This document shows positions 17,207 to 19,270 of a stretch of 64,000 nt of DNA, in pieces. The stretch is taken from positions 1 to 64,000 of the forward strand of contig CALISD010000014.1 of NCBI GenBank assembly GCA_938041955.1, given 5' to 3'. Position 1 is the stretch's first letter. Each line of letters begins with the position of its first letter. The stretch comes from an uncultured Granulosicoccaceae bacterium. GTDB lineage: Bacteria > Pseudomonadota > Gammaproteobacteria > Granulosicoccales > Granulosicoccaceae. The translations under genes and the position numbers were made by a program. Under the pieces are notes generated by a model. The model did no database searches, had not been told where the DNA came from, and saw nothing but the letters and a program-made list of their open reading frames with translations.

Positions 17207-17233
17207 CCGGAGCGTTCAGATTGAACGCTCCGG
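17207..17233. terminator. Hairpin terminator between convergent genes
   Basis: CCGGAGCGTTCA (17207-17218), a 3-nt GAT loop and TGAACGCTCCGG (17222-17233) form a perfect 12-bp stem. It lies 28 nt after the thiolase stop and 18 nt after the stop of the convergent oxidoreductase gene, so it could serve both. No long T-tract follows on either strand. Confidence 0.7.
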
Positions 17234-17251: not shown

Positions 17252-17872
17252 CTAGTTTTTCTCTACAACCCCTGCTTCAAGTAGCAAGCCTTCTATTGCT
17301 TCATAAGGTTGCGCACCTACAATACCCTTTTGGGCGACGACATAGGTAGGCACACCGGTCACCCCATAGCTACGTGACTTACTCCAGTCATTATCGACTG
17401 CTTCTTTAAAACTACCGTTGGTCAATGCCTCGGAAGCACCTGCGGTATCAAGCCCGATAGATTTGCACAACGCCAGCAATACGTCGGTATCAGCGACATT
17501 CTGGCATTCAACAAAGTAAGCCTTAAAAAGTGCATTGTGGATCATCTCACCTTCTGGCTGAGTCTCGGCCCACTTTGCCAGTTCTTGAGCCTTTCGACTG
17601 TTGTAGGTATGTGTTCGCTGGCCATAAGGTAAGCCTTCAGCATCCATCAGGCCTTTCATATGCTTATTTTTTCCTTCAATTTCTTCAGGGCCGCAATTAA
17701 ACAGTGCTTCCAGCGGTCGGCCCTCAGACGGAGTTTCCGGGTGCAGCGGAAACTGTACAAACTGTACGGCAACATTATACTTTTCTTGTATTCGCTCAAT
17801 ACGCACGGTACTGAGATAACACCAGGGTCAAACGTAGTCGTTGAAAACTTCTAATACAGGGGTTTCAAGCAT
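17252..17872 (-). CDS. FrnE/DsbA-family oxidoreductase, probable selenoprotein with U-P-W-C active site
   Basis: Read from ATG 17872, this 206-residue frame contains one in-frame TGA at 17830-17828 (codon 15). The context is EVFNDYV-TGA-PWCYLSTVR, where the FrnE/DsbA family has CPWC. The TGA thus replaces exactly the first, nucleophilic cysteine, while the second cysteine (codon 18) is kept. The rest is a typical thioredoxin fold with helical insert, including SYGVTGVPTYVV with the cis-proline loop. A GAGGG ribosome binding site lies 9 nt before the ATG, and a SECIS-like hairpin follows the TGA. Selenocysteine insertion is therefore likely. A start downstream of the TGA (GTG 17806) would lose the active site. 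No selA, selB, selC or selD is in the window. A nonsense mutation is possible but the position argues against it. Confidence 0.82.
17795..17815 (-). promoter_or_regulatory. SECIS-like hairpin downstream of in-frame UGA
   Basis: In the mRNA, 12 nt after the UGA, CUCAGUAC pairs with GUAUUGAG (8 bp, one G-U pair) around the 5-nt loop CGUGC. The apical loop lies 21-25 nt after the UGA and has G at its second position followed by U. Bacterial SECIS elements recognised by SelB lie in this distance range with a G in the first loop positions, so the geometry fits. The hairpin is inside the coding sequence, as expected in bacteria. Confidence 0.7.
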
Positions 17873-18050
17873 GGTATCGATCCCTCAAAATGAAGGTTAA
17901 GCATACATTCAGTGTTTATGCATTAATAGTGTAGAGAACACTCAAGATGAAAAGCAACTTCATGCTTTTGTCATAAACTGTCTCTATCCCCATTGAATCA
18001 AACCAAAAGAAGTAACATGTTGAAGAGACAAACACAGGAACTCAACTCAT

Positions 18051-18542
18051 ATGGTTGATCAAACAAAGCGAACCACGCTCAAAATTCTAAGCGGCTCGGC
18101 GGCGGTAATGGCTGCATCTTCGTCTGTGGTGATGGCGGGCAACTGCATTTACGGTGCAGACAAATCACACACTGCAATGGAAGAAACCGTTGTACCGGTA
18201 TCCAATGGAACAGAGCTGACCATCGCTCTGTCGGTTGAGCCTGAACCGACTATTCGCATGACGAACCACAGCAATAAATTACTCATCGTTCGCCATGTGT
18301 ACCCTGGTATTGTGCATGCAGGTGACCAAACGTTCGATATTAATTCAATTTTTGAAAACAGCGCTTATGCGATTGGTGCAGGCACTACCCGGAACGTATT
18401 AATCAAACCTACCGCAAGCACCACAGCAGAGACAAGCTATCCAGGGCATCTATACAAAAAACAACCCCAACGCATAGCCGCGGTCACCGGACGAGACCAT
18501 CAGGGAAAGCTTGCCAATTCTACCCGAAGCTTCTTTGCGTAG
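18051..18542 (+). CDS. Small exported protein of unknown function
   Basis: I do not recognise this 163-residue protein. Its N-terminus (QTKRTTLKILSGSAAVMA then ASSSVVMAGN) is a signal sequence with the look of a Tat-type leader, but it has Lys-Arg instead of twin Arg. The mature part is mostly beta-like (TELTIALSVEPEPTIRMTNHSNKLLIVRHVYPG) and could be a small cupredoxin- or immunoglobulin-like fold. No metal-site cluster is evident. The start ATG 18051 has AGGA 11 nt upstream. It is divergent from the probable selenoprotein gene, sharing a 178-bp intergenic region. Confidence 0.6.
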   Translation: MVDQTKRTTLKILSGSAAVMAASSSVVMAGNCIYGADKSHTAMEETVVPVSNGTELTIALSVEPEPTIRMTNHSNKLLIVRHVYPGIVHAGDQTFDINSIFENSAYAIGAGTTRNVLIKPTASTTAETSYPGHLYKKQPQRIAAVTGRDHQGKLANSTRSFFA

Positions 18543-18610: not shown

Positions 18611-19270
18611 TTAGCTCGACGCCTCCAATACAACCGCATCATGCACAACCATCGCAACATCCAACTCTACTTGTAACCTTTCAAGCACTTGGTGCGCTGC
18701 CCAGTGTCGACGCAATATAATGCGCTTCGACGTGCATTCAATTGCTATCGCCTCCGACTGAAGTAAAAACTTTCTGATCTTCTGCTTCAACAACGGCAAC
18801 ACGACATCACCCTGCTCAGTCACCACGTGATACCTGTTCGCCAACTGCGAATCATCTGGAATGTCAATGTTTCTGCCGTCTGTGATATACGTGATCGCTT
18901 CTGGCACAACGGTCGGAAGCAACGTAAATTCCGCTAATACATGAGCCGTATCTATGACCGTGATAGACCAGGCCGTTTGATTGCGTTTGCGCGCGGCTTT
19001 ACTTAAGGTGAACTTGCGCCTGTTTGTAGAATACGCCTTGAATTGCCTAGTGGTTACACCGCCCTCTTCCTTTTGGTAAAGATTCTTGGTGTACATGCCC
19101 GCCACCAGCGCAGAATCAGACAGGTTTTCTAATTGCTCCACGCCTTTATCGCTGAAAGATTTGTCACGGTAGAATCGTCGCGAGATAAGTGGTGTTCTGA
19201 TGGCATCAACAATTCCGAAAACCGCCATGGCAAAAACAAACGCGGTAACCGCATACTCAGTTGTTGTCAT
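18611..19270 (-). CDS. Membrane-anchored protein of unknown function, partner of the CorC-like gene
   Basis: The 219-residue protein has a single N-terminal membrane helix (YAVTAFVFAMAVFGIVDAI, residues 5-23). The cytoplasmic domain that follows begins RTPLISRRFYRDKSF and is rich in basic residues and beta-like segments. No catalytic motif is recognised. The start lies 2 nt after the stop of the CorC/HlyC-type gene on the same strand, so the two are almost surely co-translated. It may be an accessory factor of that protein. The 3' end converges on the small exported-protein gene. Confidence 0.65.
   Translation of the reverse strand: MTTTEYAVTAFVFAMAVFGIVDAIRTPLISRRFYRDKSFSDKGVEQLENLSDSALVAGMYTKNLYQKEEGGVTTRQFKAYSTNRRKFTLSKAARKRNQTAWSITVIDTAHVLAEFTLLPTVVPEAITYITDGRNIDIPDDSQLANRYHVVTEQGDVVLPLLKQKIRKFLLQSEAIAIECTSKRIILRRHWAAHQVLERLQVELDVAMVVHDAVVLEASS

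Follow-up and report, generated by a model that had tools for sequence, protein, structure and literature searches.

An in-frame TGA near the 5′ end of a gene for a FrnE/DsbA-like oxidoreductase raises the question of whether this codon ends translation or is read as selenocysteine (Sec). The gene lies on the minus strand of a 64,000-nucleotide stretch of contig CALISD010000014.1 (hereafter the window), from the draft genome of an uncultured Granulosicoccaceae bacterium (GCA_938041955.1; 6.18 Mb, 222 contigs, 93% complete).

A FrnE-like frame interrupted at the active site

The features of the locus are as follows.

17252..17872, minus strand: predicted selenoprotein gene for a FrnE/DsbA-like thiol-disulfide oxidoreductase, 206 aa with Sec15 (frame reading, PF01323 and FrnE matches)
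17882..17886, minus strand: GAGGG, ribosome-binding-site-like, 9 nt 5′ of the ATG (sequence reading)
17872-17870, minus strand: start codon ATG (sequence reading)
17828..17830, minus strand: in-frame TGA, codon 15, first residue of UPWC, read as selenocysteine (TGA/TGC exchange among homologues)
17254-17252, minus strand: stop codon TAG (sequence reading)
17252..17806, minus strand: 184-aa ORF with GTG start, the shortened product of Sec-blind gene calling (table 11 ORF list)

The TGA at codon 15 is the sole internal stop, and the frame gives 206 residues once it is counted as one; the predicted protein begins MLETPVLEVFNDYV-U-PWCYLST..., with the TGA translated as U. A first-pass annotation of the window had described a 206-codon frame broken only by this TGA, at the place of the first Cys of a CPWC motif, and re-reading confirmed both the frame and its positions; the strand, which is minus, had been left unstated. 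It had also anticipated that automated calling would shorten the gene to the part after 17806, and on this frame the table 11 list does give the 184-aa ORF alone. UGA also serves as a stop codon here: of ten further ORFs examined in the vicinity, two end in TGA.

The protein matches the Pfam DSBA family (PF01323; 123.3 bits against a cut-off of 25.6, E 1.4e-35, profile positions 2-189 of 191), and its best sequence match in the PDB is Deinococcus radiodurans FrnE (DR_0659; 5cnw and 5cp1; E 1.9e-24), which it resembles over residues 7-199, the CPWC of the D. radiodurans protein aligning with UPWC. Both (U/C)15-P-W-C18 and V174-P175 are invariant in all 32 rows of an alignment (A3) from which the SPYG homologues L043, L046 and L047 were left out, and we take P175 to be the cis-Pro of the cis-Pro loop. 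The window protein differs from D. radiodurans FrnE in that Sec replaces the first Cys and in that the C-terminal CXXXXC tail is absent, no Cys being found beyond residue 136. Many FrnE proteins carry this tail and some do not, so that it is optional, and it has been proposed to regenerate the D. radiodurans enzyme (PMC8945050); recycling of the window protein should therefore differ. With the domain beginning at residue 7, the protein is probably cytoplasmic.

A more distant match was found to NCBIfam NF041057 (Rcas_1661 thioredoxin-like (seleno)lipoprotein, a UxxC family termed ‘DsbG-like’ in PMC13188914), which is matched by 30 of the 32 A3 rows at E 0.001 or better. The window protein scores 31 bits, over residues 90-196 only, far under the NCBI cut-off of 190 bits, and membership was rejected. 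PHROGs gave one partial match, of 64.4 bits over residues 108-188, to a family annotated as of unknown function.

Gene neighbourhoods were compared across 27 loci with flanks of up to about 3 kb, some shorter, and among the 12 largest clusters listed no sense-strand neighbour family was common to more than six loci. Relatives of the genes at 18051-18542 and 18611-19270, neither of which has a Pfam match, adjoin the selenoprotein gene in six of the 27, the window included. A perfect inverted repeat of 12 nt, its arms 3 nt apart (17207-17233), lies between the selenoprotein gene and the convergent thiolase gene and looks like a shared terminator; it was not listed by the consensus terminator scan, which gave two sites (0.9 expected), and the promoter scan gave one (1.1 expected).

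Codon 15 in homologues and the selenocysteine machinery

Codon 15 was compared in 28 distinct homologues of at least 45% identity that cover it, 13 from 57 relatives and 15 from a wider scan of genome contigs (24 loci; six search peptides, of which one carried the motif in its Cys form and five lay off codon 15). Six repeat copies, L069 and L070 (which stop short of codon 15) and loci below 45% identity were left out of this set. TGA followed by PWC occurs in 25 of the 28, and TGC in the other three (L052, L054 and, covering residues 1-80, L067), so that the in-frame UGA aligns with Cys of homologues as had been predicted. All three TGC homologues are alphaproteobacterial records, and the Cys forms are approximately 58% identical to the window protein. 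Among 18 more distant rows the residue is Cys in 15 and Ser, within SPYG, in three; a distant paralogue in the window genome (27% identical) is stop-free.

The concern that close relatives might be truncated pseudogenes was not borne out, as the aligned part of each of the 25 TGA genes contains a single stop. In the 13 relative genomes the close homologues, the window's own aside, are 55 to 84% identical to the window protein, with one in-frame stop each, a TGA. Both 5′ and 3′ of the TGA, dN was lower than dS in all pairs with computable dS (four of six pairs for codons 2-14 and three of six for codons 16-206 minus 19-27); against L019, dN/dS was 0.230/0.717 and 0.080/1.207 for these two stretches respectively. 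One relative (G013, contigs C58 and C77) carries, in addition to a main copy of 61% identity, a further match that contains one TGA and is 63% identical over residues 3-130, and another (G008) has an extra fragment covering residues 156-202, short of codon 15.

The first-pass annotation had proposed a search for selA, selB, selC and selD, and all four are present in the window genome. The tRNA-Sec scores 66.3 bits (RF01852, cut-off 47) and is called tRNA-SeC by ARAGORN, a second RF01852 match above the cut-off being a tRNA-Ser; selA (568.7 bits, contig C42) lies 1.4 kb from selB (403.4 bits), and selD scores 246 bits. The same genome holds a second TGA gene, with the TGA at codon 11:

L082:1480-1698 (= G000:C11:26264-26452, G000 being the window genome), minus strand (in L082): SelW/Rdx-like gene with in-frame TGA, CVQU motif

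Across the 57 relatives the TGA gene was found in 13 and selA over its cut-off in 16, selB over its cut-off marking the same 16 genomes. Both the TGA gene and selA occur in 11 genomes, selA only in five, neither in 39 and the TGA gene only in two, G009 (94% complete) and G019 (84%), which have no selA or selB over the cut-off. In G009 a tRNA-Sec scores 78.1 bits. No tRNA-Sec passes the cut-off in G019, where the C-terminal part of a selB was found at a score below the cut-off. Since both genomes are drafts and selA adjoins selB, a single gap can remove both genes, and draft gaps probably account for their absence. Outside these 57, selA was found in all nine of the other Sec-form genomes searched, and in one of three Cys-form genomes searched (that of L052); L057, L058 and L064 were left out of this search.

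A candidate SECIS hairpin downstream of the UGA

Bacterial SECIS elements are hairpins just 3′ of the UGA whose small apical loop contains a G (PMC1088965), and the window gene has a candidate with these features:

17795..17815, minus strand: candidate bacterial SECIS hairpin CTCAGTAC-CGTGC-GTATTGAG (folding, near-invariance in Sec genes)

In the RNA, CUCAGUAC-CGUGC-GUAUUGAG, the stem begins 12 nt past the UGA and the loop is of 5 nt with G second. The 51-nt stretch from the UGA onward has a folding energy of -13.8 kcal/mol, compared with -7.05 (sd 2.35) for shuffled sequences (z -2.87, 0 of 200 as stable). Codons 20-25 hardly vary among the 25 Sec genes, synonymous sites included: codon identity at equal amino acid is 0.949 (1450 comparisons), against 0.614 for the best of 182 other 6-codon windows and 0.406 outside codons 15-27, and none of 300 synonymous-codon shuffles within each gene reached this value (maximum 0.352).

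Pairing was possible in 90.6% of 192 cells among 24 distinct sequences, as against 17 to 50% for slid controls, and in the seven inner pairs three of 168 cells were unpaired. Of the 25 Sec rows, 22 permit the complete set of seven inner pairs and three permit six of them; the hairpin is part of the minimum-energy fold of 51 nt in 23 rows, the exceptions being L065 and L066, joined by L061 when 54 nt are folded. The three TGC rows allow just three or four of the seven pairs, none of them in the fold; L052 and L067 have at the same place a different local stem, of about -7 and -6 kcal/mol respectively, that may be chance or a remnant.

Folding energy by itself is unremarkable in 16 of the 25 Sec rows, z being -2 or lower for the 51-nt stretch in nine and positive in two. 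Covariation is weak to modest: changes on both sides are seen in three of eight pairs, one of which is the outermost pair, itself unpaired in 15 of 24 sequences; a slide by +3 beats the hairpin on covariation score (0.096 versus 0.067), and 270 of 500 shuffles had as many pair types as the real hairpin. Rfam gave no match at E up to 10 across 17700-17950. The grounds for regarding the hairpin as a good bacterial SECIS candidate are the synonymous constraint that accompanies TGA, and neither energy nor covariation.

These results bear on the other ways in which the TGA might be read. Were it a true stop, the locus would be a pseudogene or would yield just the product of the ORF that starts at 17806, and under table 11 that ORF does stand alone; but its product would miss the entire UPWC motif, the same-codon TGA recurs in 25 distinct genes from lineages of four phyla, and dN < dS holds on both sides of it, all of which make a true stop very improbable. 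The draft state of the assembly might point to a sequencing or assembly error at a TGT or TGC codon, but the sharing of the TGA by 25 distinct genes makes error unlikely, and with a near-invariant hairpin sequence that tracks TGA and not TGC we regard the chance of it as negligible. The amino acid inserted cannot be told from sequence alone, which leaves some room for UGA readthrough that does not use the Sec machinery, for instance through a reassigned UGA or a suppressor tRNA; against this the UGA stands exactly opposite the redox Cys, the genome has the full Sec machinery, and the TGA-terminated ORFs nearby speak against general reassignment, so that we consider such readthrough extremely improbable.

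Pseudogene, sequencing error and non-Sec recoding were accordingly rejected on dN < dS, the TGA common to 25 genes and the Sec machinery. The selenoprotein reading of the first-pass annotation is supported by the machinery genes, the exchange of 25 TGA with three TGC and the undecayed homologues, and we conclude, with a probability of roughly 95%, that the gene product is a DsbA-family protein of the FrnE branch that contains Sec. As the machinery genes and the hairpin suggest, a ribosome reaching the UGA at codon 15 would insert Sec once SelB, carrying Sec-tRNA(Sec), has bound the hairpin that follows closely. Sec15 would then be the nucleophile in a Sec15-Pro-Trp-Cys18 redox pair adjoining the cis-Pro loop at V174-P175, and the enzyme may reduce, oxidise or isomerise disulfides. 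In vitro, D. radiodurans FrnE reduces insulin and acts as an isomerase, and the frnE mutant shows sensitivity to cadmium and diamide (PMC8945050); by analogy, the window protein probably acts in oxidative or metal stress.

The FrnE subfamily and known DsbA-like selenoproteins

In a midpoint-rooted tree of 45 rows (L067, too short, was left out) all 25 Sec forms group together with two Cys forms, L052 and L054 (support 98/99), and within this group the Cys pair is nested beside a Sec form (91/66). Sec/Cys label changes number at least two, of which well-supported branches force one; inner support is weak and the program warned of long branches. Rows of the Sec group are labelled as Pseudomonadota, Planctomycetota, Thermodesulfobacteriota and Myxococcota. 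The tree suggests a reversion from Sec to Cys inside a mostly Sec clade. A broader proposal, to which we give about even odds, is of a Sec-native FrnE subfamily in which Sec is the usual and probably ancestral first active-site residue over four phyla, with a nearly invariant SECIS, and in which rare reversion to Cys goes with loss of the SECIS sequence and in some genomes with the absence of selA.

The first-pass annotation called the selenoprotein probably new but suspected that its class might already be described, and the suspicion proved correct. ‘DsbA-like’ UxxC selenoproteins have been known since 2005, when nine, assigned to COG2761, were reported from the Sargasso Sea among new families said to have SECIS-like stem-loops (PMC1088965), and were described again in 2008, 2022 and 2026. 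The Sargasso family thereby shares with FrnE a COG that includes D. radiodurans frnE (DR0659; PMC1978522). The Global Ocean Sampling (GOS) family ‘DsbA 1’ (pfam01323, UxxC) has 63 sequences and is commoner in marine samples (PMC2398784); DsbA-like proteins with PF01323 and UxxC are listed in PMC9312934 and in a 2026 review (PMC13188914), whose table gives a ‘DsbA-like protein form 1’ (PF01323, UxxC, NIP15863.1) with one early source cited, and which we infer to be the same family as DsbA 1. Four DsbA-like selenoproteins are counted in PMC1794560, and the accessible text of PMC12013277 names neither DsbA nor FrnE.

Likened by COG, Pfam family and motif, and not by alignment, the Sargasso, GOS and form 1 proteins resemble the window protein in PF01323, UxxC, a downstream SECIS and a marine setting. 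Our literature search found nothing on a UPWC motif protein, a Granulosicoccaceae selenoprotein or, judging by titles, a FrnE selenoprotein of this kind, and PMC1088965 alone for DsbA selenoproteins under COG2761; in the accessible text of the published DsbA-like selenoprotein accounts, figures aside, no description of this FrnE subfamily or of its SECIS sequence was found. The kind is therefore known and the window gene is a further member of it, what is added here being the Granulosicoccaceae members, the mostly Sec FrnE subfamily over four phyla and the SECIS candidate.

The Granulosicoccaceae members join a little-studied family of UxxC DsbA-like selenoproteins, and the window gene is an example of one shortened by table 11 gene calling. 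The near-invariant hairpin sequence is a good starting point for a family-specific SECIS model, and the Sec and Cys members of one subfamily form a natural set with which to ask what is gained from Sec in a cytoplasmic disulfide enzyme.
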